In this document: one piece after another, positions 872 through 15,981 of the stretch
Position numbering within the stretch: position 1 is the first letter of the stretch
Layout: each line of letters starts with the position of its first letter
DNA from: a virus
Length of the DNA stretch: 22,098 nt
Direction: 5' to 3' (one strand)
IMG/VR virus record: IMGVR_UViG_3300033141_005977
Span: 1-22,098 of that record
Notes under the pieces: model-generated
What the model was told of the DNA's origin: nothing
The model's input: only the letters and a program-made list of their open reading frames with translations
Databases searched by the model: none
Position numbers and translations under genes: made by a program

Positions 872-1705
872 ATGGCTGACGAAGAAAATAAATGGACGAA
901 ACCCTCTAATCCTCCGCCACCTCTTTTTCTAGGCGAAAGAGAGAGAAATCTTGTCAAGCAGGTCAATGACGAGCTTATCGAGAGGGTAATAGGCCAAGCA
1001 ATTACTTATTTACCAATCTCTATGGAGAGATCAAATTTTCACCCACTCTATGGGGAGGCGATAGAAAAGTCATTTTTACCACCAATTCGAGTATATGCTT
1101 TGGTGGAATTTGAAAGTAAAACAACAATAACAACAGATTATGGTATCGATAAAGATTATTCAATCATCGTTCGTTTTCATAACCGCAGACTCCACGAGGA
1201 TCAAAATTTATTCATACGAGAAGGGGATTATGTTCAGTATGGCACTTCTTTTTTCGAAATAGTCACACTTACTGAAGACAGAGACTTGTTTGGCCAAGTT
1301 GACCACCGATTCCAGCTTATCGCCAAGTGCATAAAAACAAGAAGAGGGTTAATAAACCTGGACATCTTGCCTACCGCTACTGTAGCGGCCCTCACTGATA
1401 GCTACGAGGCAGAAGTTGTTCCCACCTTATCTCCCGCATCAATTCCAATAACAAGTGTTGTTCGGCTTATATACTGTGAGGATGCCATCGTGGATATTTC
1501 TTCGGGAACTTCTCTAAATTCTTTTCTTGGTGCCCCAATAACTTTATCTCTAGAGACTGCGGCCATCTATCTAAATGGACTGAGGCAGGAATTGACCGAT
1601 AGTCCTATAACCGGAGAATATTATATTGTTTCTGGCGAACTCTACAGCTCCTTTGACATTTCAATTGGCCAACGCCTGACATTAGAGGTCTTGACATTAG
1701 TATGA
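872..1705 (+). CDS. Neck protein, T4 gp14-like, with extra C-terminal beta-type module
   Basis: This is probably a neck protein that joins the filled head to the completed tail, as T4 gp13/gp14 do. It has 277 aa. Residues 20-165 carry a pattern I recall from gp14-like neck proteins of large aquatic phages: GERERNLVKQVNDELIERV, then QAITYLPIS, FHPLYGEAIEKSFLPPIRVYA, and a tail with GDYVQYG and FFEIVTL. Residues from about 170 to 277 look like a separate small beta domain ending in IYLNGLRQELTD, then YYIVSG and GQRLTLEVL, resembling fibre or adhesin modules. A GAAGGAG ribosome-binding site lies 8 bases upstream, inside the end of the previous gene. Its stop overlaps the next start as ATGA, so it is translationally coupled to the DUF444 gene. 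The neck assignment is moderate; the C-terminal module is inference. Confidence 0.55.
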   Translation: MADEENKWTKPSNPPPPLFLGERERNLVKQVNDELIERVIGQAITYLPISMERSNFHPLYGEAIEKSFLPPIRVYALVEFESKTTITTDYGIDKDYSIIVRFHNRRLHEDQNLFIREGDYVQYGTSFFEIVTLTEDRDLFGQVDHRFQLIAKCIKTRRGLINLDILPTATVAALTDSYEAEVVPTLSPASIPITSVVRLIYCEDAIVDISSGTSLNSFLGAPITLSLETAAIYLNGLRQELTDSPITGEYYIVSGELYSSFDISIGQRLTLEVLTLV

Positions 1706-2907
1706 GTATTTTCAAAGAACATAAATCAATAGCAGATCGCTCCGCAACAGACAGAAAAAGACACAAGCAAAAAATAGATAAAGCACTCAGGGAGGGGTTA
1801 AAGGGTGTGATTGCTGAAGAATCCATCATAGGTCAAAGTGGCAAAAAGAAGGTAAAAATTCCAGTTAAGGGTGTCAGGGAATACCAATTTGTTTATGGGG
1901 ACAACAAAAACAACAAAAAAGCGGGTTCAGCTGGCGATAAAAAAATCAAAAGAGGGCAGATCTTAAGAAAGGGCGGAGGAAAATCAAAACAAGCAGGCAA
2001 AAAAGGATCCCAGGACCCAGGAGAAGAATATTATGAAGTGGAGGTTACATTAGAGGAGCTAGCGGAGTTGCTCTTCACAGACCTTGAGCTACCTGATCTT
2101 GAAAAAAAGAAATTTAGATATATAAAGACCCAAAAACTGAAGAGGCGCGGATTTAGAAAGAAAGGCATGCGATCACGCCTTTCAAAAAAAGAAACTATTA
2201 AGAGAAAAATAAGAAGAAAGAAGAGGGCCGTTGCCGCAGGCACCTATGATCCGGATGGCGAAGAGAGATTCCCTTTCCACGAAGACGATTTAAAATATAA
2301 ACATATGAAATTGAAGCCAGAAGAAAATAATTCTGCAGTCATCTTCTTCTTAATGGATGTTTCCGGCTCAATGACGAAAGACAAGAAATACATCGCCAGA
2401 AGTTTTTATTTTTTATTGTATCAGTTTCTTCGATACAAATACGATAACATAGAGGTTGTTTTTATTTCACATTCGACAGAAGCAAAAGAGGTCAGCGAAG
2501 ATGATTTCTTCAAAAAGGCAACCAGCGGAGGGACCTTGATGTCTACTGCATTAGAATTAGAAAAAGAGATAATAAATAAAAGATATCACCCATCCAGCTG
2601 GAATATATATACTTTTTATTCTGGTGACGGAGAAAACTGGTCCTACGATGACGAAAAAACAATAAGATTGTTTTCAGAACTAAAAGAACTAAATCAAATG
2701 ATGTGCTATGCTGAAATAGACCCATATTCGGTGGGAGAAACCGATTTGTCGTTTTTGTCAAGATCTTTTAATTATAATGTTAGTGAAGCGAGCAAAATGT
2801 GGATGAAAATCAATGCCGTCCTGGGTGATAGTTTTAAGAAAGTAAAACTTACCAAACCAGAACACATTTGGCCATCATTCCGTGAATTATTCGGGGGAAA
2901 CCCGTGA
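1702..2907 (+). CDS. yeaH-like: DUF444 / YeaH-YhbH family von Willebrand factor A protein
   Basis: In bacteria YeaH (YhbH in Bacillus) is encoded with the PrkA/YeaG kinase and SpoVR and acts in starvation or sporulation responses; its biochemical role is poorly known. The 401-aa protein has the full family layout. A basic N-terminus (FKEHKSIADRSATDRKRHKQ) is followed by a Gly/Lys-rich linker near residues 70-105. Next comes the EEYYEVEVTLEELAELLF / DLELPDL segment (about 108-133), then a second basic stretch. The von Willebrand A domain has an intact MIDAS: DVSGS at 219-223, SGGT near 275-278 and YSGDGEN near 306-312. The C-terminus HIWPSFRELFG is also typical. The start overlaps the neck-gene stop (ATGA) and the stop overlaps the SpoVR GTG start, so it depends on coupled translation; its own ribosome-binding site is weak. 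Assignment is firm by motif. Its presence in a phage structural operon is the odd part. Confidence 0.93.
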   Translation: MSIFKEHKSIADRSATDRKRHKQKIDKALREGLKGVIAEESIIGQSGKKKVKIPVKGVREYQFVYGDNKNNKKAGSAGDKKIKRGQILRKGGGKSKQAGKKGSQDPGEEYYEVEVTLEELAELLFTDLELPDLEKKKFRYIKTQKLKRRGFRKKGMRSRLSKKETIKRKIRRKKRAVAAGTYDPDGEERFPFHEDDLKYKHMKLKPEENNSAVIFFLMDVSGSMTKDKKYIARSFYFLLYQFLRYKYDNIEVVFISHSTEAKEVSEDDFFKKATSGGTLMSTALELEKEIINKRYHPSSWNIYTFYSGDGENWSYDDEKTIRLFSELKELNQMMCYAEIDPYSVGETDLSFLSRSFNYNVSEASKMWMKINAVLGDSFKKVKLTKPEHIWPSFRELFGGNP

Positions 2908-4205
2908 AAGATTGGTCCATAAAAGAATTAGAGCATTGGGACACAGAAATTTGCAAAATTGCAAAAGAGAAATATAATCTAGATTGGTTCCCTATCGAGT
3001 ACGAAATCTTAAATTATCATGAGATGATCGGTGCCATGGCATATTCCGGCCTACCGTCACATTACCGTCATTGGTCTTTTGGAAAATCTTTCGAAAGAAC
3101 AATAACTAGATACAATCTTGGGATGGAGGGTTTGCCGTATGAGATGATCATCAATGCGAATCCTTCAATCGCTTACCTCATGCTTGAGAACCCGATGAGT
3201 ACCCATTTATTAACAATGGCTCACTGTGTGGGACATTCAGATTTTTTTAAAAATAACAGAATGTTTAAATATACGAATCCGGCCGACATTCTAGCAAGTT
3301 TCAAATCCGCCGCAAAAAGAGTTAAGTCATATATAGAGGACCCAAATATTGGAATAGAGAAAGTGGAGAGAATCTTAGATGCATGCCATTCTATTCAATA
3401 TCAGGTGCCCCGCACACCGGGAATATTTAGAATGAGCGAGCATGAGACTAAAAAGCTGATTATTAAAAAAGCTAAGGGGAAGATCGATTTATCTTCCGGT
3501 CTGGTAAATAAAAATTATAATCTTTTGGATTTTATCAAGAAGAACGCCAGAAATCTGGAAGATTGGCAGCAAGACTTAATTGAGATGGTGGAGAGAAGAT
3601 CTTCATATTTCATCCCACAGGCTCAAACAAAGATCATGAATGAGGGTTGGGCAGTCACGATTCATGAAAAAATAATGAAAGATTTAAAGCTTGCAGATAA
3701 ATACTATTTAGCATTCTTAAAAACACACAATCAGGTTGTGAGACCTATAGTCGGAAGAGTGAATCCTTATCATCTGGGATATATGATTTTTAAAAAAATT
3801 GAAGAAAAATATGGATTTGAGGAGAGTCTTCTTGTCAGGGAAACCCACGACGATGAGTCCTTTATTCGAAAATATCTAGATGAAGACTTATGTAGAGAAC
3901 TGAACCTATTCAGCTATTCTTACAGCAATAAACAGAAAAATTATGCCATTAATGACATTTCCGATAAAGAAGGGTGGAAAAGCGTTAGGTCCGCCCTAAT
4001 TAGTAATGTAGGGTTGGGGGGAGTTCCTATCGTTTATGTTAAAGACCATGATAAAAAGACAAATACACTTTATATCAAGCATGAGCATGATGGTAGGGAT
4101 TTAGATATCCCGTATGCAAACAAGGTCTACAGCCAGATTTGTTATTTATGGGGCGATGACGTCGATTTTACAGCAATTATAGATGAGGAACTATGGGAAT
4201 TTTAA
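2904..4205 (+). CDS. spoVR-like: SpoVR / YcgB family protein
   Basis: SpoVR is needed for spore cortex formation in Bacillus and is co-encoded with PrkA and YeaH in many non-sporulating bacteria; its molecular activity is not established. The protein has 433 aa, somewhat shorter than the roughly 470-510 aa of bacterial members. Hallmark blocks are in order: DWFPIEYEILNYHEMI (about 27-42), HWSFGK (56-61), NPSIAYLMLEN (86-96), AHCVGHSDFFKNN (106-118), a C-terminal KIMNEGWA (243-250) and GRVNPYHLGY (284-293). The GTG start overlaps the DUF444 stop as GTGA, with a GGGGGAA ribosome-binding site about six bases upstream. The stop TAA lies one base before the internal ATG of the PrkA gene. All conserved His/Asn/Glu blocks I recognise are present, so it does not look decayed. 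Family assignment is firm; its function in the phage is unknown. Confidence 0.93.
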   Translation: MKDWSIKELEHWDTEICKIAKEKYNLDWFPIEYEILNYHEMIGAMAYSGLPSHYRHWSFGKSFERTITRYNLGMEGLPYEMIINANPSIAYLMLENPMSTHLLTMAHCVGHSDFFKNNRMFKYTNPADILASFKSAAKRVKSYIEDPNIGIEKVERILDACHSIQYQVPRTPGIFRMSEHETKKLIIKKAKGKIDLSSGLVNKNYNLLDFIKKNARNLEDWQQDLIEMVERRSSYFIPQAQTKIMNEGWAVTIHEKIMKDLKLADKYYLAFLKTHNQVVRPIVGRVNPYHLGYMIFKKIEEKYGFEESLLVRETHDDESFIRKYLDEDLCRELNLFSYSYSNKQKNYAINDISDKEGWKSVRSALISNVGLGGVPIVYVKDHDKKTNTLYIKHEHDGRDLDIPYANKVYSQICYLWGDDVDFTAIIDEELWEF

Positions 4206-6147
4206 AATGAAACATTCAAAAACAAATAAATTTTTAGAGATCGCAGAGGGGCATAAAAAAAGCAGCAAAAGAGAGAAGTTTTCTGGCACTTTTTCTGATT
4301 TTTTGGAATTGTTGGAAGACGATAAAGATATCGCGATATTGGCCCACAAACGCCTATATAGCACGATCGTTGAAAAGGGAATAACAAGATTGTCAGAAGA
4401 AGATTCCCGCTGTAATAACCTATTTAATGGAGAAGCCCTCAAAACTTATGATTATTTTCAAGATAGGTTTTTTGGAATGGAGCGACCTCTCGCTAAAATT
4501 ATGAGATATTTGCACTCTGCATCGATGAGGGGAGAAGAGAGTAAGCAAGTTTTACTCCTCCTCGGACCCGTCGGAGCCGGTAAATCGGCACTAGTTGAAC
4601 ACATTAAGCGCGCCTTGGAGAATTCTGGCAAACTATATGCTCTTGGGGACTGCCCGATACAAGAAGATCCACTCCATCTTGTTCCTCGCTCCCTCAGAGA
4701 AAACTTTAAAGATATCTATGGAATAAAGATCGAAGGAGACTTATGCCCGGTTTGTCGTCACAACCTATTGGAAGTACACGGCGGAGATTATACAAAATTT
4801 CCAGTAAAAGAAACTTCCTTTTCAATTCGGGGCCGTCGCGGCATCGGAGTTGTTCCGCCTATGGATGCCAACACTCAAGACACAAGCATCCTGATAGGGT
4901 CAGAAGACATTTCTAAATTAGATCTATATCCAGAGGACGACCCTCGTGTTCTGTCCCTTAACGGGGCCTTTAATGTGGGAAATCGTGGAATCGTGGAATT
5001 CGTAGAGGTCTTCAAAAACGAAATAGAGTTCTTGCATACAATGATTACAGCAACTCAAGAAAAAGCTGTCCCGTCTCCTGGTAAAGGGGCGATGATTTAC
5101 TTTGATGGGGTTATCCTTGCCCACTGTAATGAAGCAGAATGGGTTAAATTCAAGTCTGAAAATACAAACGAGGCAATTTTAGATAGAATAGTTCGAGTAA
5201 ACGTTCCATATTGTTTGGAGGTTAGTGAAGAACAAAAGATCTATCAAAAACTTCTTGACGAATCAGATTTCGATGCACATATCGCACCGCACACACTTGA
5301 ACTTGCGGCCATGTTCTCTGTACTCAGTCGGCTAAAATCTTCCAACAAAGTTGACCCCCTCACTAAAATGAAGATCTATGATGGGCAGGAAATCGTCGAA
5401 AAAGGATATATCAAAAAAGTGGATATTAATGATTTGAGGGACGAAGTACGCGACGAGGGAATGACAGGCATCTCGACAAGATTCATTATGAAATCTATAG
5501 ATGCAGCTCTCGCTGATTCCGAAAGGAACATGGTTACACCGATCTCTATTCGGGATGCTCTCGTCAAACAAGTTAAAGAACAGGTCGTTGTAGAAGAGCT
5601 GAGGGAGAAATATTTATCCTTTCTCCAAAAAGAGCTTCACGATGAATATCTCAAAATATTGGAAACAGAAATCACGAAAGCCTTTGTTTCTGCATACCAA
5701 GAACAAGCAGAATCGCTCTTTGACAATTATCTCGATCATGCGGAATCATATGTCAATGGGACCAAGGTTAAAGACAAGGTAACTAATGAAGAAATGGTAG
5801 CTGATGAACCTTTCCTGTGCTCAATCGAAGAACAAATCGGAATAGTCGGTTCCGCAAGAGAAAACTTTAGGGCAGATATCACCGCATACATGTTTGCAAA
5901 ATTGAGAAAAGGCGAAAAGATTGACTGGACATCATATGGTCCTCTTAAAGAGGCCATCGAAAATAAGCTGTTAACTTCGGTACGAGATATCTCCAGAATC
6001 GTCACGAAATCCAAGTCGAGAGATAAGAAGCAGCAAGGAAAATACAATGAAATGGTGAAAACCCTTATCGAAAATTATGGTTACGACGAGAACTCTGCTA
6101 CGGAAATTATCAAGTATGCATCGAATAATCTATGGAGAGACAGTTAA
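4183..6147 (+). CDS. prkA-like: PrkA / YeaG family AAA+ serine protein kinase
   Basis: PrkA (YeaG in E. coli) couples an AAA+ module to a C-terminal kinase-like domain; Bacillus PrkA has also been proposed to be an ATP-dependent protease. The longest reading is 654 aa, close to the bacterial lengths (about 630-645 aa). Visible motifs are the N-terminal FSGTFSDFLELLE and Walker A GPVGAGKS (128-135). They are followed by a CPVC pair (188-191), the family block NRGIVEFVEVFKN (267-279, Walker-B region), FDGVILAHCNEAEW (307-320, sensor Asn) and DRIVRVNVPY with EEQKIYQKLL. A long helical C-terminal part follows. The start at 4183 overlaps SpoVR by 23 bases and has no ribosome-binding site. The in-frame ATG at 4207, one base after the SpoVR stop, gives 646 aa and is equally likely. 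A strong terminator follows the gene. Assignment is firm; its substrate in infection is unknown. Confidence 0.94.
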   Translation: MRNYGNFKMKHSKTNKFLEIAEGHKKSSKREKFSGTFSDFLELLEDDKDIAILAHKRLYSTIVEKGITRLSEEDSRCNNLFNGEALKTYDYFQDRFFGMERPLAKIMRYLHSASMRGEESKQVLLLLGPVGAGKSALVEHIKRALENSGKLYALGDCPIQEDPLHLVPRSLRENFKDIYGIKIEGDLCPVCRHNLLEVHGGDYTKFPVKETSFSIRGRRGIGVVPPMDANTQDTSILIGSEDISKLDLYPEDDPRVLSLNGAFNVGNRGIVEFVEVFKNEIEFLHTMITATQEKAVPSPGKGAMIYFDGVILAHCNEAEWVKFKSENTNEAILDRIVRVNVPYCLEVSEEQKIYQKLLDESDFDAHIAPHTLELAAMFSVLSRLKSSNKVDPLTKMKIYDGQEIVEKGYIKKVDINDLRDEVRDEGMTGISTRFIMKSIDAALADSERNMVTPISIRDALVKQVKEQVVVEELREKYLSFLQKELHDEYLKILETEITKAFVSAYQEQAESLFDNYLDHAESYVNGTKVKDKVTNEEMVADEPFLCSIEEQIGIVGSARENFRADITAYMFAKLRKGEKIDWTSYGPLKEAIENKLLTSVRDISRIVTKSKSRDKKQQGKYNEMVKTLIENYGYDENSATEIIKYASNNLWRDS

Positions 6148-6181
6148 AATAGCCAGCACCCTTTAAACACCAATTTTAAAC

Positions 6182-6219
6182 AAAGCCTCGTAATATTTTT
6201 ACGGGGTTTGTTTTTTTTT
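6182..6219 (+). terminator. Strong intrinsic terminator after the YeaH-SpoVR-PrkA genes
   Basis: The left arm at 6183-6193 (AAGCCTCGTAA) pairs with the right arm at 6199-6209 (TTACGGGGTTT) as 11 base pairs including two G-T wobbles. The loop is 5 bases, and nine T residues follow at 6211-6219. This is a textbook rho-independent structure that closes the neck/triad transcription unit before the adhesion cassette. Confidence 0.88.
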
Positions 6220-6402
6220 GTTGCCATATTCAGTTATTTTTTGCTTTTGAGGATAGGTGGCACTATCTACGAACGACTTGGTGCAACCTTAGACCAAGCT
6301 CTTGTTTTTTTGAAAAACCTCGGTTTTTTTTAAGAGCAAATTTACTTTTTTTTAAGGAGAAAAAAATATGAAAATAAATAAAACAAATAGGAGGAACTTA
6401 TC
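6220..6402 (+). promoter_or_regulatory. Structured leader before the LamG gene
   Basis: This is a non-coding stretch apart from the small leader frame at 6368. It holds several short inverted repeats in series: GATAG/CTATC (6252-6256 with 6263-6267), CTTGGT/ACCAAG (6277-6282 with 6293-6298) and an A-T hairpin capped by CTCG (AAAAAC 6313-6318 with GTTTTT 6323-6328, running into T residues to 6331). An outer GCTCTT/AAGAGC pair (6298-6303 with 6332-6337) could enclose the last one. Another T run lies at 6345-6353. Some of these may be additional weak terminators; alternatively the region is a regulatory 5' leader. No convincing -35/-10 pair was seen. Confidence 0.4.
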
Positions 6403-6412
6403 ATGGCTTTAA
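6368..6412 (+). CDS. Possible 14-codon leader peptide overlapping the LamG start
   Basis: The frame reads MKINKTNRRNLSWL and ends at TAA 6410-6412, ten bases past the first base of the LamG ATG at 6403. It has a perfect AAGGAG ribosome-binding site at 6354-6359, 8 bases from its ATG. Its own coding sequence contains the AGGAGG ribosome-binding site (6389-6394) of the LamG gene, read as two rare Arg codons AGG AGG. It is either a coupling leader peptide or a remnant start; I cannot tell without translation data. Confidence 0.35.
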   Translation: MKINKTNRRNLSWL

Positions 6413-9030
6413 GTGATCACACTTTAATAGCAGCTTATCCGCTTGGCTTCGGAATCGAAGACTTGCAGGACAGCTACGATGGATATAGTGCCCAAAACAT
6501 GACATTTGCTGGAGATGTGGAACTCGGCGGATTACCCGTCGCAGATTTCAACAGCTCTTATTACGGCATCGATAATGCTCTAGAAAATGGTCTTGACACA
6601 GAGTATTCAATCTCAATGTGGATTAAACCAGATTCGCTTCCTGCGGGCAGTGCCCAAAGAACTATTATGGCAAATGAGCAACACGGCTCTTATTATAATA
6701 CCTTTGGAATCCAACAGATGTCCGATGGACAGCTTTACATCCATCACAGATCTGCCAATGGTGGCGCCTATGATATCGCATTTACCGGTGTGTCCCTTGC
6801 GGTAGACGAATGGTACCATGTCACTGCAACATGGAGTGGCACACAAATCAAGTGGTATGTCGATGGTGAATTGACAAGCACCACGGCCGCCACAAGGGTT
6901 CCTTGGAACTCTCCAGCTACACTCTGGATCGGCGCAAATGCAACGAAAACCAATAAAACATACTACGACGGTAAAATGTCGGATTTAAGGTTCTGGTATT
7001 CAGAACTTACTGCATCCGATATCTCGGAGTTATATGCAGCAGGACAAGTTCCGATAGACTTGGGCCTCGTCCTTCATCATGACTGTGATGATGCGACAGC
7101 CGAAATCGGTTCGGATGTGACCTTTACTGATGTTTCCATTGGCTCATCTTTAGGTCGCACACATTGGGATTTTGCGAATCTCAATTCAAAAGCACCATTG
7201 GATGTGAATAACCTGCCAGACATGTCTGGCGATTGGACCGTTTCGATGTGGTTTTCGGAGATGACAGCTCCAACCACTTGGCGATCCATTGCAAAAAGTC
7301 AAACAGAAATCTTGGGAGTGGTTTCAAGTCCGCATCACTCACCCGCTAACACACTGGGTGTTTACACAACCACTGGTTATGTAAGCGCTGGATACTCGAT
7401 GAATTATTTGAATTTTCAAAACTGGAATCACATGGTTATCGTCGGTAGCGGAACAACTACCAAATTTTATATTAATGGATCACATGTCGGAACAGCACCA
7501 GTGAAAATTTCAACAGATCTCTATTCAATAAATAATCAACCCGTTGGGGCTTACAATCAGTTGTTTGCAAACAACATGGACGATTTACGAGCTTGGAATC
7601 GTGCACTCTCAGAAATTGAAGTTCAAGCCCTCCACCTAACAACAACTGTCACGCCATCTCTAACAGATGATCTTGTAGCAAAATATGCTCTTGATACTGA
7701 TGCATCTGATTCTGTTGGATCGAATGACGGAACAGTGACTGGTGTTGATTTCATATCAGATTCTGGAAGAACCGTTGCCTCATTCGACGCATCTGCTGGT
7801 GAGAAGATTCATTTTGGCGATGTTGACGATGTTGACTTTGGAACCGCTGATTTCTCGGTTGGAGCTTGGGTTAACTTTAACTCTATCTCAACGGGCCCAT
7901 TTGTTTCGCCAGTCGTTCAAAAAGGTCAGACAAGCTTGGCCAATTGGAGCGGATATGCCCTGAACGCTTATCAAGGACAAATGAGGTTCGGGGTAGGTGG
8001 AAATAATGGAGTTAAAGTTGCCGCAGCTGCAATTACAACAGGCGATTGGCATCATGTAGTTGGTACAAGAAAAGGCGCGGCTATAAAGCTGTATATTGAC
8101 GGCTCTTTGGTGGATACACAAGCCGATACAATGACTAGGAATGTTAGCACACATTTGCCATTAACTTTTGGTTCCATTAACAATGGTACAGAATACAATG
8201 GATTGTTGGATGCAATGGTTGACGATGTTCGAGTTTGGTCTAGGGCACTCTCTGATTCTGAAGTCTCAACCCTACATGCAGCAGGAGCAGATAGCCCTGC
8301 CCCATCCGGCTATGACTGGACTCACGGCGGAAACTTGTCTGATATTGTCAAATTCTCAAGAGGATATGACATTTCTGGCAATCCTTCTTATGCTTATGCT
8401 AAGAAAGAGTCGGGTGATGGTTCAACAACTCTGTACTTTGCGACAGATTTCCAAACATGGTCAACATTCTCATCATATGCTTCCGGTGTGTCATCAATTG
8501 ACGGCTCCCCAATTTGCATGGAATATGGCCCGAATGGAAAAGTTCTGGTAGGAACAGATAGCGGCAAGTTATATGAAATCGTCCTTGACGGCTCATCGGC
8601 TCCGCAATCTTACTCACTTGTCCATTCAATGGCTGGTAGTGAAGATATCAAGGTCATTAAATATGGTGTATCTTCCAACTTGTGGGCTTTCGAAGCTGGC
8701 GGAAAGGTTTATACCATTCCTGTCGGAGGCGGAGCAGCAGTTGAAAAACTCGACCTAAATGTTGTAGATCAAGCTGGCTCTATCGTGCAGGACATGTCCG
8801 AAGCGAATGATGCTTGGTCAATTGTGGTTCGTCGCTCTGATTTCACCTTCGTGGTGTATCTGGTGTCACCTGACTGGTCAACTGTAAACAACCCTGCTTC
8901 TTTGCAAGCGGTGTTGAGTGCGATCAATCCGGTGGATTTGAACTACTTCTACGATATTGACACTTGGTGTGCTTCTGGTGCTGATGGAACTGTCATTACG
9001 ACAGACGACATCAATAACTGGATCGTATAA
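6403..9030 (+). CDS. Triple LamG-domain (concanavalin-A-like) virion adhesin with propeller-like C-terminus
   Basis: This is likely a surface-exposed virion protein that binds sugars or host surfaces (tail fibre, head decoration or baseplate-linked adhesin). Its 875 aa contain three successive LamG_3-type jelly-roll domains at about 8-214, 222-412 and 423-628. Each shows the signature order (Y/W)S(I/V)(S/G)(M/A)W near the start, W-x-H-(V/M) in the middle, K-(W/F/L)-Y-(V/I)-(D/N)-G, and an ending of D-(L/V)-R-x-W-x-x-x-L-(T/S). Residues 636-875 differ: repeated short segments such as GKVLVGTDSGKLYEI, DAWSIVVRRSD and a final GTVITTDDINNWIV look like blades of a beta-propeller or BNR-type repeat. 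There is no signal peptide, as expected for a virion protein. It has an AGGAGG ribosome-binding site 8 bases upstream. Domain calls are firm; the position in the virion is inference. Confidence 0.82.
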   Translation: MALSDHTLIAAYPLGFGIEDLQDSYDGYSAQNMTFAGDVELGGLPVADFNSSYYGIDNALENGLDTEYSISMWIKPDSLPAGSAQRTIMANEQHGSYYNTFGIQQMSDGQLYIHHRSANGGAYDIAFTGVSLAVDEWYHVTATWSGTQIKWYVDGELTSTTAATRVPWNSPATLWIGANATKTNKTYYDGKMSDLRFWYSELTASDISELYAAGQVPIDLGLVLHHDCDDATAEIGSDVTFTDVSIGSSLGRTHWDFANLNSKAPLDVNNLPDMSGDWTVSMWFSEMTAPTTWRSIAKSQTEILGVVSSPHHSPANTLGVYTTTGYVSAGYSMNYLNFQNWNHMVIVGSGTTTKFYINGSHVGTAPVKISTDLYSINNQPVGAYNQLFANNMDDLRAWNRALSEIEVQALHLTTTVTPSLTDDLVAKYALDTDASDSVGSNDGTVTGVDFISDSGRTVASFDASAGEKIHFGDVDDVDFGTADFSVGAWVNFNSISTGPFVSPVVQKGQTSLANWSGYALNAYQGQMRFGVGGNNGVKVAAAAITTGDWHHVVGTRKGAAIKLYIDGSLVDTQADTMTRNVSTHLPLTFGSINNGTEYNGLLDAMVDDVRVWSRALSDSEVSTLHAAGADSPAPSGYDWTHGGNLSDIVKFSRGYDISGNPSYAYAKKESGDGSTTLYFATDFQTWSTFSSYASGVSSIDGSPICMEYGPNGKVLVGTDSGKLYEIVLDGSSAPQSYSLVHSMAGSEDIKVIKYGVSSNLWAFEAGGKVYTIPVGGGAAVEKLDLNVVDQAGSIVQDMSEANDAWSIVVRRSDFTFVVYLVSPDWSTVNNPASLQAVLSAINPVDLNYFYDIDTWCASGADGTVITTDDINNWIV

Positions 9031-9132: not shown

Positions 9133-12100
9133 ATGAGTAAACGTACAAGATTAAAGGGAATAGATCAGGTAGACATCGCGCTATCTGGGGTTTCCGATTA
9201 TGAGACTTATGCAGATGCTGTATTAGCAGGAGACAGCGGCCTAGCTGACTTATCGATGGACCTTTTCGATATTAAGGCCCTCGCCCTGAGTGCTAGTGTC
9301 GCAGACTATCAGGCTGCAGCTAAAAATCATGCCATCATCAACTATGGCATGCTTAATTATGCAGTCGGAATTGAAGAGGCTCGTGCCCTCGCAGCAGAAG
9401 CTGCAATTCAAGCTGATGTTGATGCAAACGAGGCTGCAGCACTTGCAGCTCGCAATGCAATTCAAGCTGATGTTGATCAAAACGAAGCCGATGCAGATGC
9501 TGCAATCGCCGCACTCCAAGCCGATGTTGATGGAAACGAAGCTGATGCAGATGCTGCAATCGCCGCACTCCAAGCCGATGTTGATGGAAACGAAGCTGAT
9601 GGTGATTCTGATCGTGCTGCTATCCGCAGCGAGATCGCCGCAGCTAAGGTTATTTCTGATGCTCTTCATGCTGCTATCCAGAGTGATGTTGACCAGAACG
9701 AATTAGACTCCGATGCAGCAGAAACATCACTCACGACTCGTCTGGCAGCAGAAGAAGTCGCTCGTGCCGCTGATGTCGATGCCGAAGAAGCTCGTGCCAT
9801 CGCCGCTGAAGCAGTGCTTCAAGCTGATATTGATCAAAATGAAGTGGATGCTGATATCGCAGCAGCATCACTCACCACACGCGTAGCCGCCGAAGAAGCC
9901 GCACGTGCATCTGCAGTTAGTTCTGTTGATGTTCGCTCTGCAGCAGAAGAAGCAGCTCGTGCCGCAGGTGATTCCTCTCTTCAAGTCAGACTGGCTGCAG
10001 AAGAGGGTTCCCGAGCCTCGGGTGATTCCTCACTCCAGACTCGCTTATCCGCAGAAGAAGCAAGAATGGACGCAGTCCTTCTCTCTTCCTCCGCAGACAA
10101 AGACAGTTTCGCTGAAATCGTTTCTTTGATCAACGCTGTTGATCTCACAAACGACAATGACTTGGCAGCCGCCGTCCTTAGTTTGGCAAACGTCGATTCC
10201 GCAGAAGAAGCCGCAAGACTTGCTGCTGATGCCTCACTCACAACCCGTGTTGGTGTTGAAGAGGCTGCAAGAGCTGCAGCCGACTCCTCGCTCACCACTC
10301 GTTTGGGTGTTGAAGAAGCGGCCCGTATTGCTGATGTAGATGCAGAAGAACTTCGTGCATTAGCTGCTGAAGCAGCACTTCAGGCAGACATTGATGCAAA
10401 TGAAGCTGCCTCCGATGCCGCTGAAGCTTCACTCACCACTCGCTTGAGTGCTGAAGAAGTTGCAAGAGCTGCTGCAATTAGCTCTTCCGACATTCGTGTC
10501 GCTGCTGAAGAAGCTGCAAGAGCTGCTGCTGACTCCTCACTCACCACTCGCTTGAGTGCTGAAGAGTCCGCTCGTGTTGCAGATGTTGCTGCACTTCAAG
10601 CCGATGTCGATCAGAACGAATCTGATTCTGATTTCGCCGAAGCATCACTCACCACTCGTTTGGGTGCTGAAGAAGTTGCAAGAGCTGCTGCAGATGCTTC
10701 TATCGTCGTCAAGCACGACGCAGAACTCGCTGCACTTCAAGCTGATGTGGACGGAAACGAATCCGACGCAGATGCTGCCATTGCTGCCCTTCAGGCCGAC
10801 GTGGACGGAAACGAAGCTGATGCAGATGCTGCAATCGCTGCACTTCAAGCTGATGTGGACGGAAACGAAACTGATTCCGATGCCGCAGAAGCATCACTCA
10901 CCACCCGCTTGGGTGTTGAAGAAGCTGCTCGTGCCACGGCCGATGCATCTATAGTCACAAAGCATGATGCAGAGATGGCTGCCCTTCAGGCAGATGTTGA
11001 TGCAAATGAAGTGGCCTCCGATGCTGCTGAAGCCTCACTCACCACTCGTTTGGGTGCTGAAGAGGTTGCAAGAGCTGCAGCTGATGGATCCTTGACAACT
11101 CGTCTTGGTGCCGAAGAAGCTGCAAGAGCTGCTGCAATTTCTACCCTGGAATCAAAGCATGATCTTGAGGATGCTGCAGAACAAACGGCACGTGCCGCTG
11201 CAGATGCATCTTTAAACTCTAAAATTGATGCTGAATCTGCCGCACGAATTATCGATGTTGATGCAGAAGAAGCTCGCGCCCTAGCAGCAGAAGCTGCATT
11301 GCAAGCTGATATCGACCAGAACGAAACTGATTCTGATGTTGCTGAAGCATCACTCACCACTCGTCTCGGTGTCGAAGAGGCTGCAAGAGCAGCCGCTGAT
11401 GGTTCTATTGACACTCGTATGGGTGTTGAAGAAGCAGCAAGAGCAGCTGCAGATACCTCACTGTCTTCACGTGTACTCGCTGAAGAAGGTGCAAGGGCTT
11501 CAGGCGATTCCTCGCTCACTACTCGTTTGGGTACTGAAGAGGCAAGAGTAGATGCTATTTTGCTCGCCGCCGATGCAGATAAAGACAGCTTCGTTGAGAT
11601 CGTTTCTCTGATCAATGCTGTTGATCTTACTAACGACGATGCACTCGCGGCCGCTGTACTTAGCCTCGCAAATGCTGACTCTGCAGAAGAAGCAGCAAGA
11701 ATTGCTGCAGATGCTTCTTTAACCACTCGTTTGGGTGCTGAAGAAGTTGCAAGAGCTGCTGCAGATACCTCACTGACGACTCGTGTCGCAGCAGAGGAGG
11801 CCGCACGTGCTGCTGCTGATGCATCGATCGATGTTGTCAACGCTGCAATGCAGGCTGACATTGATCAGAACGAAACTGATTCTGATGTTGCTGAGGCATC
11901 ACTCACGACTCGTCTCGGTGTCGAAGAGGCTGCAAGAGCTGCCGCTGATGGATCCTTGACAACTCGTCTTGGTGCTGAAGAGTCCGCAAGGGCCGCAGCT
12001 GATGGATCTATCGACACTCGTATGGGTGTTGAAGAGGCCGCAAGAGCTGCAGCTGATGGTTCTTTAACCACTCGTTTGGCTGCAGAAGAAGTCGCTCGTG

Positions 12101-12540
12101 CTGCCGATGTCGATGCTGAGGAGGCCCGTGCATTAGCTGCCGAGGCTGTACTCCAAGCTGATATCGATCAGAACGAAGCAGACGGAGATGCTGCAATGGC
12201 TGCAGAAATCGCTGCTCGCCTCCTTCAAGAAGGAAAGGTAAGCACAGACATCGTAGCTATGAACACCAAATGGCAAATGCATGTATATCCAATCCAGGCA
12301 GCCGATATCGCACCAGGAATGGTTTTGAGTTTCGCTGCAAACGGACACGATCCAATGTCGCAAGTTGCTTATGTATCCATTAACGGTATGATTATGGCAC
12401 CAATCGTCGGCGGTTCGGGTGATTACACTTTGAACTTGGACGGAAGCGGTGATGTTGACGGTATTACTTTCGACATTCAGATTTATGCTGGCGATCGTAT
12501 TGCTTACTACGGTGAGAAAGCTATCACACTTCTGTCGTAA
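9133..12540 (+). CDS. Long alanine-rich fibre protein made of 18-residue helical repeats
   Basis: This is probably a trimeric or otherwise multimeric fibre shaft with a small terminal head, acting in host contact or virion decoration. The 1135 aa divide into three parts. Residues 1-79 form a unique N-terminal part, likely the attachment end. Residues about 80-1040 carry two interleaved 18-residue repeat types, one centred on LQADVDxNEADADAAI and one on SLTTRLGAEEAARAAAD. Residues about 1045-1135 form a compact C-terminal domain rich in beta pattern (VYPIQAADIAPGM, YVSINGMIMAP, GDRIAYYGEK). Two copies of a roughly 45-residue non-repeat insert (ADKDSFxEIVSLINAVDLTND) interrupt the shaft. It has an AAGGAG site at 9118-9123, 9 bases from the ATG, and a strong terminator follows the stop. 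Composition is extreme (Ala, Asp, Glu, Arg, few aromatics in the shaft). The structural role is confident; whether it is a tail or head fibre is unknown. Confidence 0.75.
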   Translation: MSKRTRLKGIDQVDIALSGVSDYETYADAVLAGDSGLADLSMDLFDIKALALSASVADYQAAAKNHAIINYGMLNYAVGIEEARALAAEAAIQADVDANEAAALAARNAIQADVDQNEADADAAIAALQADVDGNEADADAAIAALQADVDGNEADGDSDRAAIRSEIAAAKVISDALHAAIQSDVDQNELDSDAAETSLTTRLAAEEVARAADVDAEEARAIAAEAVLQADIDQNEVDADIAAASLTTRVAAEEAARASAVSSVDVRSAAEEAARAAGDSSLQVRLAAEEGSRASGDSSLQTRLSAEEARMDAVLLSSSADKDSFAEIVSLINAVDLTNDNDLAAAVLSLANVDSAEEAARLAADASLTTRVGVEEAARAAADSSLTTRLGVEEAARIADVDAEELRALAAEAALQADIDANEAASDAAEASLTTRLSAEEVARAAAISSSDIRVAAEEAARAAADSSLTTRLSAEESARVADVAALQADVDQNESDSDFAEASLTTRLGAEEVARAAADASIVVKHDAELAALQADVDGNESDADAAIAALQADVDGNEADADAAIAALQADVDGNETDSDAAEASLTTRLGVEEAARATADASIVTKHDAEMAALQADVDANEVASDAAEASLTTRLGAEEVARAAADGSLTTRLGAEEAARAAAISTLESKHDLEDAAEQTARAAADASLNSKIDAESAARIIDVDAEEARALAAEAALQADIDQNETDSDVAEASLTTRLGVEEAARAAADGSIDTRMGVEEAARAAADTSLSSRVLAEEGARASGDSSLTTRLGTEEARVDAILLAADADKDSFVEIVSLINAVDLTNDDALAAAVLSLANADSAEEAARIAADASLTTRLGAEEVARAAADTSLTTRVAAEEAARAAADASIDVVNAAMQADIDQNETDSDVAEASLTTRLGVEEAARAAADGSLTTRLGAEESARAAADGSIDTRMGVEEAARAAADGSLTTRLAAEEVARAADVDAEEARALAAEAVLQADIDQNEADGDAAMAAEIAARLLQEGKVSTDIVAMNTKWQMHVYPIQAADIAPGMVLSFAANGHDPMSQVAYVSINGMIMAPIVGGSGDYTLNLDGSGDVDGITFDIQIYAGDRIAYYGEKAITLLS
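9487..9594 (+). repeat. Tandem 54-bp repeat, two copies
   Basis: Two adjacent 54-base units (9487-9540 and 9541-9594) are identical except for one base (GCC versus GCT at the first codon). They encode the 18-residue unit ADADAAIAALQADVDGNE inside the fibre shaft. The near-identity at synonymous positions indicates recent duplication or ongoing exchange. Confidence 0.9.
10066..10200 (+). repeat. Copy 1 of a duplicated 45-residue insert in the fibre
   Basis: This segment encodes MDAVLLSSSADKDSF then AEIVSLINAVDLTND and AAAVLSLAN. It matches the segment starting at 11548 with only conservative changes, at an offset of 1482 bases. It breaks the 18-residue coiled repeat and may form a hinge or globular knob on the shaft. 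Confidence 0.85.
10732..10884 (+). repeat. Tandem 54-bp repeat, nearly three copies
   Basis: Units begin at 10732, 10786 and 10840 and encode AALQADVDGNE-type 18-residue repeats. They match each other at most positions and differ mainly at synonymous third bases (GCT/GCC, GAT/GAC). They belong to the same family as the repeat at 9487 but are more diverged from it. Confidence 0.85.
11548..11682 (+). repeat. Copy 2 of the duplicated 45-residue insert in the fibre
   Basis: This segment encodes VDAILLAADADKDSF then VEIVSLINAVDLTND and LAAAVLSLAN. It is the second copy of the insert at 10066, in the same frame and flanked by similar shaft repeats (RASGDSSL before, SAEEAAR after), so the duplication probably included shaft sequence on both sides. 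Confidence 0.85.
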
Positions 12541-13113: not shown

Positions 13114-15981
13114 ATGTCAGTTAAAAAATTCAAATTTGTATCTCCCGGCGTCTTCGTCAAAGAGATCGACAACTCTCAACTACCTGCAGCTGCACGAAGT
13201 GCTGGCCCAGTAGTTATCGGCCGCCTCCCCAGAGGCCCAGCAATGGAACCCATCAACATTAGTTCTTTTTCAGAATTTGTTGATGTTTTCGGAAACCCCG
13301 TCCCAGGGAAAGCAACTGGCGATGTGTGGAGAGACGGAAACCTTCAGGGGCCAACTTATGCATCATATGCGGCCCAAGCATATTTAAGAAACAGTGTAGA
13401 TGCCATTACGGTCTTAAGATTGGCCGGATTGGAAAACGATGATGCCGACGATCCAGCAGGTGCTGCAGGCTGGGGCACCGTTGACATCGACACTTCTCCG
13501 GCATCTAACGGTGGAGCATATGGCCTTTTTCTGTGCAACCCATCGGGATATACTGCCACAACCACCGAGCAGGGATACCTTGCAGGCATTTTCTATTTTG
13601 CTTCCGGCGGTGCAGTAGTAATGACCGGCACTTTGGCTGGTGCAGCCGCTCCAACACAGGGAATCGGTGCACTATTCAACACATCCTCGGACATCGGAAG
13701 CTCTAAAGGTCCAGACTTCGAGGCTATGATTATTGATGCCTCGGATGCGGAAGTATACAAGACAACTTTTAATTTCGATGTATCATCTAGAACATTCATC
13801 AGAAAAATATTTAATACGAATCCGCAGTCAACAAACACCGCAGTTATTCCAACAGATTCTTTCTCTAGAGGTGAAGAGCTTTATTGGCTTGGGGAGACAT
13901 ACGAATCTTTCATTCAGAAAAAGCTCGATGACGGATCTCTAAGTACCGCCTCTTACGGACTCATTCTTCCTTTCGACGACGCAACAAAATCTAATTACAG
14001 ACAAGATGCAACGAAGGCTGCAACCGGGTGGTTCTTTTCTCAAGATGTGGGAACCGACTGGGCATCATGGGAAGCATCAAAGATGCAAAACCTCTTCAAA
14101 ATCCATGCTACCGAGCCGGGTAAATGGATTCAGGACAATCTCAAAGTATCGGTCCAAGGCTTAAGCTATTCTAGAGATACAACCGGAACAAATTCTTATG
14201 GATCTTTCACGGTAGTCGTTAGAAAGGCTGATGACACTGACGGAATAACTCAGATTGTTGAAAGATTTTCAAATGTGAATTTGAATCCGCTCTCTGATAA
14301 TTACATCGCCAAAAAAATTGGTGATAAATACAGAGTTTGGAGTCAAACAGATAAAGTTTTGAGAGAATACGGCGAATATGGGAATGCTTCAAAATACATT
14401 AGAGTAGAAGTGGCAGATACCGTCCGCAATGGTATTGCAGATCCAGTTTTACTGCCCTTTGGAGTATACGGGCCTTCCAAAATCAAGGATGTTTTGGTGG
14501 AAGCATCAGTAATGACCCCTGCAACTGTTTTAGAACCAGGGTCGGCTGGTCCTCGTAGTATCGCTGCAGGTGCCGGTGGCACCGAGATCAATACGGGTTC
14601 CTTGACACCATACACACTTAATATTAATTTCCCAGAAACACAATTAAGAATTTCTTCTTCAGCAGGCGGCTTGACGGATCAGACAGATGCTTATTTCGGT
14701 CTGAACGCCTCTTCCTACTTGGAGAATACAACATTTTATGCGAGCAATAGAGCAGATGCTGGCTTGGGAGATTATTTATATCCCCTCGGCGGCATCGCCT
14801 CTGGCGACATCGACAATCAGTGGGCTTTCTCTCTTGATAATGTTGTTAAGCCACTTGGCAAAACATACACATATTATGCAGCAGGATCCAGAGTTGCTGG
14901 TGATTCATACTCAGCATCTGGCAGCTGGAGAGAAGTGGTAGATGACGGATGGACTAGATTCACCTCGCCCCTCTTTGGTGGCTTTGATGGTTTGAACTTA
15001 GTAGAAGTGGAACCCTTCAGAAATACGGGCATGGACGGCGAAACTCTTCAGAGCGATTATGCACTGAACACTCTTCGTCAGTCTATTGACATAGTTGCAG
15101 ACCCAGAAATGATTGATTGCAATCTTATAACTGCCCCAGGGATTACAAATACCGTTATAACAGATCACATGATGCAAGTTAGTGCAGATAGAGGAGATTG
15201 TTTAGCGATCGTGGATATTCAAGATGTTTATGTTCCTTTTACGGAAAATAAAACTCAATATGCAGATCCTAGCCAGCGCCCCCAATCGGTCACTGCAGCA
15301 GTTTCGACTCTCGAAGAGCGACAAATAAACAACTCTTACGGCTGTACATACTACCCATGGGTCCAGATCCAGGATAGTGTGACATCCAACAGCAGATTGT
15401 GGGTTCCACCTTCGGTTGTAGTATTGGGGACTTTTGCTTCCTCTGAAGCTCAATCGGAAGTTTGGTTTGCACCTGCAGGGTTCAACAGAGGCGGGTTATC
15501 GCAAGGTTCCGCTGGAATCCCAGTGTTAAATGTTAGTCAGAGACTGACTTCGAAAGAGAGAGACAAACTATATGATGCTAACGTCAATCCTATTGCCTCT
15601 TTCCCGAATGAGGGCATCGTGATTTTCGGACAGAAAACACTCCAGGCAACACCTTCGGCTCTTGACCGAATCAATGTGAGAAGAATGATGATCTTTGTTA
15701 AGAAGCAAATTTCCATTTTTGCCAATTCGATTCTCTTTGATCAGAATGTGGAAGTTACTTGGAATAGATTTAAAAGTCTCGCTGATCCTTTCTTGGCCAG
15801 TGTACAGACTAGATTAGGCTTAAGCGACTACAGATTAATTTTGGACAATACAACTACTACACCAGATTTGGTGGATCAGAACATTGTATATGCCAAAATC
15901 TTCTTGAAGCCAGCTAAAGCAATTGAGTATATTGCACTTGACTTTGTTATTACGAATCAAGGCGCAGGTTTTGAGGATTAA
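13114..15981 (+). CDS. Tail sheath protein, T4 gp18-type, unusually long
   Basis: The sheath polymerises around the tail tube and contracts to drive the tube through the host envelope. The 955-aa protein begins with the family hallmark VSPGVFVKEID (about residues 8-18), followed by GPVVIGRLPRGPAMEP and SFSEFVDVFG. It ends with the conserved C-terminal sheath domain: a VRRMMIFVKKQISIFANSILFDQN block, VTWNRFKSLADPFLASVQ, LGLSDYRLILDNTTTTPDLVD and a final KAIEYIALDFVIT. T4 gp18 is 659 aa, so roughly 300 residues are extra, mostly between the N-terminal domain and the C-terminal core, presumably outward-facing insertion domains. An AGGAG site lies 11-12 bases upstream. The tube gene follows directly, the standard order. 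Confidence 0.95.
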   Translation: MSVKKFKFVSPGVFVKEIDNSQLPAAARSAGPVVIGRLPRGPAMEPINISSFSEFVDVFGNPVPGKATGDVWRDGNLQGPTYASYAAQAYLRNSVDAITVLRLAGLENDDADDPAGAAGWGTVDIDTSPASNGGAYGLFLCNPSGYTATTTEQGYLAGIFYFASGGAVVMTGTLAGAAAPTQGIGALFNTSSDIGSSKGPDFEAMIIDASDAEVYKTTFNFDVSSRTFIRKIFNTNPQSTNTAVIPTDSFSRGEELYWLGETYESFIQKKLDDGSLSTASYGLILPFDDATKSNYRQDATKAATGWFFSQDVGTDWASWEASKMQNLFKIHATEPGKWIQDNLKVSVQGLSYSRDTTGTNSYGSFTVVVRKADDTDGITQIVERFSNVNLNPLSDNYIAKKIGDKYRVWSQTDKVLREYGEYGNASKYIRVEVADTVRNGIADPVLLPFGVYGPSKIKDVLVEASVMTPATVLEPGSAGPRSIAAGAGGTEINTGSLTPYTLNINFPETQLRISSSAGGLTDQTDAYFGLNASSYLENTTFYASNRADAGLGDYLYPLGGIASGDIDNQWAFSLDNVVKPLGKTYTYYAAGSRVAGDSYSASGSWREVVDDGWTRFTSPLFGGFDGLNLVEVEPFRNTGMDGETLQSDYALNTLRQSIDIVADPEMIDCNLITAPGITNTVITDHMMQVSADRGDCLAIVDIQDVYVPFTENKTQYADPSQRPQSVTAAVSTLEERQINNSYGCTYYPWVQIQDSVTSNSRLWVPPSVVVLGTFASSEAQSEVWFAPAGFNRGGLSQGSAGIPVLNVSQRLTSKERDKLYDANVNPIASFPNEGIVIFGQKTLQATPSALDRINVRRMMIFVKKQISIFANSILFDQNVEVTWNRFKSLADPFLASVQTRLGLSDYRLILDNTTTTPDLVDQNIVYAKIFLKPAKAIEYIALDFVITNQGAGFED

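Follow-up and report, generated by a model that had tools for sequence, protein, structure and literature searches.

A DUF444-SpoVR-PrkA triad in large T4-superfamily phages: a probable mobile accessory cassette with a possible role in protein remodelling

The window analysed here, the whole 22,098-base IMG/VR record IMGVR_UViG_3300033141_005977, carries adjacent genes for full-length members of the DUF444, SpoVR and PrkA families. We propose, at a probability of roughly 0.55, that their products form one ATP-driven protein-remodelling machine, borne as a mobile accessory cassette by large T4-superfamily phages and expressed late in the window's clade. In this model, PrkA would form an AAA+ motor ring, DUF444 would be the vWA/MIDAS adaptor by which the substrate is presented or gripped, and a third, metal-binding subunit, SpoVR, would recognize or act on it. 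The ring and adaptor mechanism draws on structure matches and on systems of the NorQD and RavA-ViaA type. In the window's clade, the cassette would have been inserted between neck and tail genes, where it would be made late and coupled to neck proteins. Phage sets, such as those of Thermus phages in a laboratory host, offer small, tractable systems in which to find out what PrkA, YhbH/YeaH and SpoVR, widespread in bacteria as a set for stress and sporulation, do biochemically.

The tail sheath (13114–15981; PHROG 23, E 3.8e-64), tube and baseplate hub identified with PHROGs place the window in a contractile-tail phage, and a 57.8 kb contig encodes an identical 654-residue PrkA (100% identity). 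The neck genes, the triad, its terminator, the laminin-G-type fibre gene and the sheath gene all lie on the plus strand. neckA (3–869, its 5' end cut by the contig) and neckB (872–1705) are conserved structural-module genes, the former conserved between connector and sheath in relatives; neither matches a family in Pfam or PHROG, and the label "neck" denotes position only. DUF444/YhbH/YeaH (1702–2907), SpoVR/YcgB (2904–4205, with a GTG start) and PrkA/YeaG (4183–6147) follow as open reading frames of 401, 433 and 654 residues, in the position and orientation given by a preliminary description of this DNA, which had reported the complete triad at 1702–6147. One detail of that description is corrected here: PrkA starts at 4183 or, more likely, at 4207, just past the SpoVR stop. 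The later start is favoured because several relatives align only from about residue 9 or 10 of PrkA.

Overlapping codons join these genes. The neckB stop and DUF444 start share an ATGA at 1702–1705, and the DUF444 stop and SpoVR start share a GTGA at 2904–2907. About ten listed relatives show the same four-base overlap between neckB and DUF444, and the DUF444-SpoVR overlap is common among relatives. An intrinsic terminator (6183–6219), an 11-pair stem followed by a T-run, closes the neckA-neckB-triad unit, and a T-run lies within 130 bp past PrkA in most or nearly all relatives of clade A, the clade of the window. The triad in this clade is translationally coupled to the upstream structural gene neckB. 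Since it is coupled to a neck gene and ends at an intrinsic terminator, its late co-expression is likely. T4-type late promoters (TATAAATA) matched at three places in the window, none of them near the triad. The downstream neighbour, outside the triad, encodes a fibre-like protein (6403–9030) with three laminin-G/concanavalin-like domains (Pfam Laminin_G_3 in 3 stretches, E 1.1e-64); fibre genes, this type included, vary strongly among close relatives, as expected for host recognition. A 1135-residue protein of degenerate AEEAARAAADASLTTRLGAEE-like repeats, probably a coiled-coil fibre, is encoded at 9133–12540, and the long antisense reading frames within it (e.g., 10986–11861) look like by-products of the repeats.

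The assignment of all three proteins to their families was borne out by Pfam, with scores far above the cut-offs. PrkA matches AAA_PrkA (PF08298, E 1.1e-144, 482 bits) and the PrkA C-terminal domain (PF06798, E 6.4e-79, 266 bits), the cut-off being 25 for both. It falls below the NCBIfam YeaG equivalog PRK15455 (409.9 bits against 576), as all three window proteins fall below every NCBIfam equivalog cut-off, and judged by these scores it is a member of the family and not a YeaG equivalog. The Walker A motif GPVGAGKS occupies residues 128–135. Residues H314, N316 and E319 are invariant along with R335 and R433, and K134, S135, N316, R335 and R433 are invariant in 53 sequences; the roles given to them (Walker A lysine, sensor or arginine finger) are our own assignment. 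A PrkA homologue has been solved in three entries (PDB 9xip, profile E 1.1e-186) and deposited as a "serine protein kinase".

In a rival explanation, PrkA would act as a protein kinase on host or virion proteins, under the regulation of the other two subunits. The family name and annotation, together with earlier papers calling PrkA/YeaG a Ser/Thr kinase (PMC4415436, PMC4664914), speak for such a role, which the preliminary description had also raised in the form of a kinase or protease. Purified Bacillus anthracis PrkA, however, has negligible kinase and protease activity (PMC13001217), and the PDB matches listed for the PrkA profile beyond 9xip are AAA+/P-loop proteins only, including weak links to the AAA+ domains of Lon and RavA, with no Hanks-type kinase among them. 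The architecture matches an AAA+/vWA remodeller, and a catalytic role as kinase or protease is improbable. The B. anthracis protein is monomeric when purified and oligomerizes once ATP is added (PMC13001217), which weighs against taking a stable PrkA ring as given.

DUF444, the putative adaptor in the remodelling model, matches PF04285 (E 2.8e-105, 353 bits, cut-off 27) and falls below the sporulation YhbH equivalog TIGR02877 (375.4 against 467.95 bits). The MIDAS of its vWA domain is complete, with D219-x-S221-x-S223, T278 and D309 all invariant. Its AF2 model, of moderate confidence (pLDDT 72), matches vWA/MIDAS structures including Rea1, MDN1 and NorQD. NorD partners a MoxR AAA+ ring whose twisting drives the insertion of metal (PMC13036017). 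NorQ/NorD, RavA/ViaA and the Rea1-MIDAS system resemble the triad in joining an AAA+ motor to a vWA/MIDAS partner; they differ in using MoxR- or dynein-type rather than PrkA-type AAA+ modules and in lacking a SpoVR subunit.

SpoVR matches PF04293 (E 1.1e-114, 384 bits, cut-off 27), with its SpoVR_C domain under the cut-off (22 against 27.6 bits) and its score below that of the PRK11767 equivalog (267.9 against 679). Its conserved residues include H107-x3-H111, N246-E247-G-W-A and H254. The two histidines and the NEGWA glutamate sit in two helices, and H107, H111 and E247 resemble the gluzincin ligand pattern minus the catalytic glutamate, which on motif grounds points to a probable metal site. 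The motif HExxH is not found, the window reading H107-C-V-G-H111 and the relatives shown having C, V or A, never E, after H107. The AF2 model is confident (pLDDT 89), and no PDB structure matched it with E below 0.001; some gluzincins are among the weak matches, with E above 0.1 and very low TM-scores. Kinship with the DUF2201 metallopeptidase was considered and is unsupported, a profile comparison against the DUF2201 alignment giving E 0.12 and a probability of 0.5%.

These sites are maintained across viruses and cells. Motif-bearing columns of the three proteins are at least 95% conserved over 148–166 phage and bacterial sequences, and the AAA+, MIDAS and conserved SpoVR residues are invariant or nearly so in both, in agreement with the preliminary description, which had held the key motifs to be kept. 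All three genes are under purifying selection (pN 0.09–0.20 against pS of about 0.8), like the neck genes.

The triad is widespread among related contigs and nearly always whole. A scan of IMG/VR found at least 140 contigs that encode a relative of the window PrkA, and gene order was called with iterated HMMs at the 80 best, which were fetched; nearly all contigs compared are fragments. DUF444, SpoVR and PrkA follow one another in this order and on the same strand in 75 of these 80 loci, with three others cut by contig ends and two carrying a split DUF444. In these last two, apparently one phage (L024/L025, 7453–8662), DUF444 is read as two overlapping frames through a frame break, either a frameshift or an assembly error. 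Bacterial loci that hold all three genes read PrkA-DUF444-SpoVR, with the last two on the other strand nearby in two Paenibacillus loci, and the phage order is a permutation of the bacterial one. The bacterial prkA-yhbH-spoVR or yeaG-yeaH-ycgB set shares with the window the same three families, all together and with intact sites. The nearest bacterial relatives, from Clostridia, Deltaproteobacteria and others, are about 52–61% identical in PrkA, whereas the window's clade is a separate viral one with the order DUF444-SpoVR-PrkA, and the window proteins score below the equivalog cut-offs. One parcubacterial locus (L105, Gr01-1014_29) has PrkA-DUF444-SpoVR followed by a second PrkA gene.

The possibility that sets occur in other large phages, raised earlier for this DNA, held for cultured Thermus phages and for huge phages. 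The Thermus phages (phiYS40, TMA, phiLo, MN1 and Lalka8/27), in whose records the triad genes are annotated, carry the three families in the order of the window's clade; they differ in lying on a long separate branch, with PrkA about 33% identical, and TMA has an extra gene between SpoVR and PrkA. A scan of IMG/VR for Thermus-type PrkA found none. Huge phages (LR745206, LR756504 and IMG/VR kin) likewise hold all three families, but their genes retain the order seen in bacteria and fall within proteobacterial YeaG, which marks their set as an independent capture. A second IMG/VR scan recovered a YeaG-type viral set, complete and in bacterial order at 63 of 80 loci, whose distant members may be misassigned bacterial contigs. 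Enterobacter phage LAU1 was set aside as a phage copy, because its YeaG/YeaH, found at the extreme end of the record, group with proteobacterial copies; this is probably host flank. A GTDB genome named "Methylococcaceae bacterium TMED69" was rejected as a close bacterial relative: its 305,838 bp contig (L091, NHDW01000006.1) has the phage order, encodes phage capsid and sheath proteins, and falls within the phage clade. It is a jumbo phage, probably mis-binned.

The phage copies form a viral clade, as the preliminary description had asked of them. In the PrkA, SpoVR and DUF444 trees, built as quick searches, a single branch with support of 100, 100 and 93 sets the window's phage clade off from all other copies, and a concatenated triad tree supports it at 100/100. 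Its neighbours in the PrkA and SpoVR trees are copies of clostridial and deltaproteobacterial type. The Thermus phages lie on separate long branches and do not form the sister group of the window's clade; of the four huge phages, three fall among proteobacterial copies. Together these positions imply at least three captures of the triad by phages, the Thermus placement being uncertain given the long branches. A single recent capture followed by decay of the sites, the outcome named beforehand as refuting a dedicated viral system, is rejected by the trees and by the purifying selection; the split DUF444 is the only interrupted gene seen.

Within the phage clade, the triad has a history distinct from that of the capsid. 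The window's phage lineage has a T4-superfamily major head protein, and the concatenated triad tree divides the clade into clade C, a group around contig L053, and clades A and B together, with 28 of 38 inner branches starred. In the head-protein tree, L053 lies inside clade C (100/100), while the triad tree places it as sister to A and B (100/99). The AU test rejects a triad tree constrained to join L053 to C (p 0.0033) and, less strongly, a head-protein tree constrained to join it to A and B (p 0.028). These p values are somewhat optimistic because the groups were named once the first trees had been seen. For the head protein, the AU test also rejects a single clade of the triad carriers of A and B (p 0.0007). 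The carriers of A and B lie in the head-protein tree among contigs with no detected triad, on fragments of up to 185 kb. This conflict between triad and capsid trees indicates that the triad moved between phages or was gained and lost repeatedly, and implies an accessory cassette that is inherited as a unit and was probably transferred between phage lineages. With more than 100 related contigs carrying PrkA, nearly always beside the other two genes and passed between phages as a unit, the triad appears to be a working viral tool. Furthermore, several phage groups took up the whole set with its key residues kept, and within this group it passed between phages; this suggests that the three proteins function as a single unit, independent of sporulation.

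Mobility of this kind would also suit a cassette for counter-defence or superinfection exclusion, directed at blocking a system with the same components in the host or in a rival phage. A yeaG E414K mutation that swept in one T7-resistant Escherichia coli population (PMC10044975) hints that YeaG can matter to phage infection. This mutation, however, was one among several in that population, and no known genes of defence or anti-defence were noticed in linkage with the triad, so we give this function little credence.

The genomic setting of the cassette bears on what the proposed machine would remodel. Relatives have a T4-type major head protein and head-tail connector upstream, and their empty site consists of connector, neckB, neckA and sheath, contiguous and without a triad. 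In clade A the triad lies between neck and fibre genes, and this neck-adjacent position is derived, within one subclade. The preliminary description had noted that the set is embedded in a structural operon and had asked whether the three genes always co-occur beside neck genes. The embedding stands for the window's clade, where the triad is coupled to neckB, and not as a general property, the sister clades having it elsewhere; the co-occurrence stands for the three genes and their fixed order and not for neck adjacency, which is confined to clade A. The order of neckA and neckB is swapped in the window's clade relative to relatives, at the point of insertion (L032 against L268–L275 and L278). 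In part of group B the triad is found beside phosphomannomutase-like and other metabolic genes, among them genes for a phosphomannomutase-type HAD hydrolase and a PALP enzyme (L039–L062). In clade C and the L053 group it adjoins a divergent GroEL-like protein and PhoH, a neighbourhood that we read as a proteostasis or host-takeover setting. The chaperonin-like protein, directly downstream of the triad (L052, 11938–13263, and kin), has about 440 residues and matches the GroEL family in PDB by profile (1e-36); in L081 a full-length GroEL (840–2471) is nearby instead.

These settings must be weighed for virion assembly, in which the triad would remodel or load proteins of the neck, fibres or tail, much as has been proposed for the MoxR-vWA pair of jumbo phages and for the tail of the archaeal virus ATV. 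Several arrangements are consistent with it: the overlap coupling to neckB in clade A, where the triad precedes the fibre and sheath genes, the location of the Lalka8 triad between a minor head protein and TerL, and the GroEL-like neighbour in clade C. There is also precedent in group 2.2 jumbo phages, whose MoxR AAA+-vWA (DUF2201) pair has been proposed to act in virion assembly (PMC7824862); this pair shares with the triad an AAA+ motor, a vWA partner, a metal-site domain and a home in large T4-like phages. The two systems coexist in the phages studied here and differ in their parts: the triad has a PrkA-type AAA+ and a DUF444-type vWA, and its SpoVR is unrelated to the DUF2201 peptidase by profile. 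With AAA_PrkA as its family match, the window set falls outside the class of MoxR AAA+ with peptidase-vWA. Against assembly, the place next to structural genes is a derived one that clades B and C lack, and no triad is seen on large contigs, themselves fragments, of relatives that share the structural module. Moreover, the lineage already has a DUF2201 vWA-metallopeptidase, detected in 14 of the 16 contigs tested, triad-less ones included, so the triad would be an addition and not the core assembly chaperone. An assembly role is possible on this evidence, at somewhat less than even odds. A bolder version, which we consider unlikely, holds that the triad is a virus-adapted remodelling machine, mobile among jumbo phages, that in the window's clade would have been drawn into the late structural operon as a second virion-assembly machine beside MoxR-vWA, with a metal-dependent SpoVR whose fold is unmatched in PDB.

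Since the triad would be an addition to an existing assembly chaperone, the balance tilts slightly to a host target, and as substrates of the remodelling machine we place host proteins slightly ahead of virion proteins, tentatively in both cases. In the host-target version the machine would set the physiological or proteostasis state of the host during a long infection, much as YeaG and YeaH of E. coli cooperate as a metabolic brake (PMC10954441). A related explanation sees the triad as a host-physiology module whose phage copy would stand in for the host's own YeaG/YeaH/YcgB or override them, so that the host, when starved or stressed, stays metabolically braked or viable through a long infection. 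YcgB, YeaH and YeaG are co-conserved (PMC2375023), and the roles of the bacterial set in nitrogen starvation and sporulation (PMC10954441, PMC13001217) favour such a module, as do the accessory, mobile distribution of the triad with its three or more captures by phages and a report from an oxygen minimum zone that ranks spoVR first in abundance among viral sporulation-type genes (PMC8940887). The late coupling in clade A, however, fits host reprogramming less well, and we hold this explanation as plausible while still short of even odds.

The protein families themselves were known already, and single genes have been reported in phages, with SpoVR and PrkA listed as separate genes in phage RsoM2USA (PMC8504454); a jumbo-phage survey makes no mention of PrkA or SpoVR (PMC7824862). 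The phage clade, its gene order and its mobility were not found in the open-licence literature searched, within which the viral clade, the permuted order, phage-to-phage transfer and insertion into a late operon appear new.

Three further features of these genomes were observed. Rhodothermus phage RM378 has an annotated ATPase and an "HNH endonuclease" (6043–7188 and 4753–6036) adjoining its major head gene. A PHROG 1314 phage protein, also called an HNH endonuclease, is a DUF2201 peptidase-vWA by Pfam, and the RM378 pair may therefore be a mislabelled MoxR-vWA. Phages of clade C have apparently duplicated sheath genes, present as pairs in G009, G011, G014 and G016. Finally, G011, also of clade C, carries two tandem major head protein genes (contig C1, 176287–180138).
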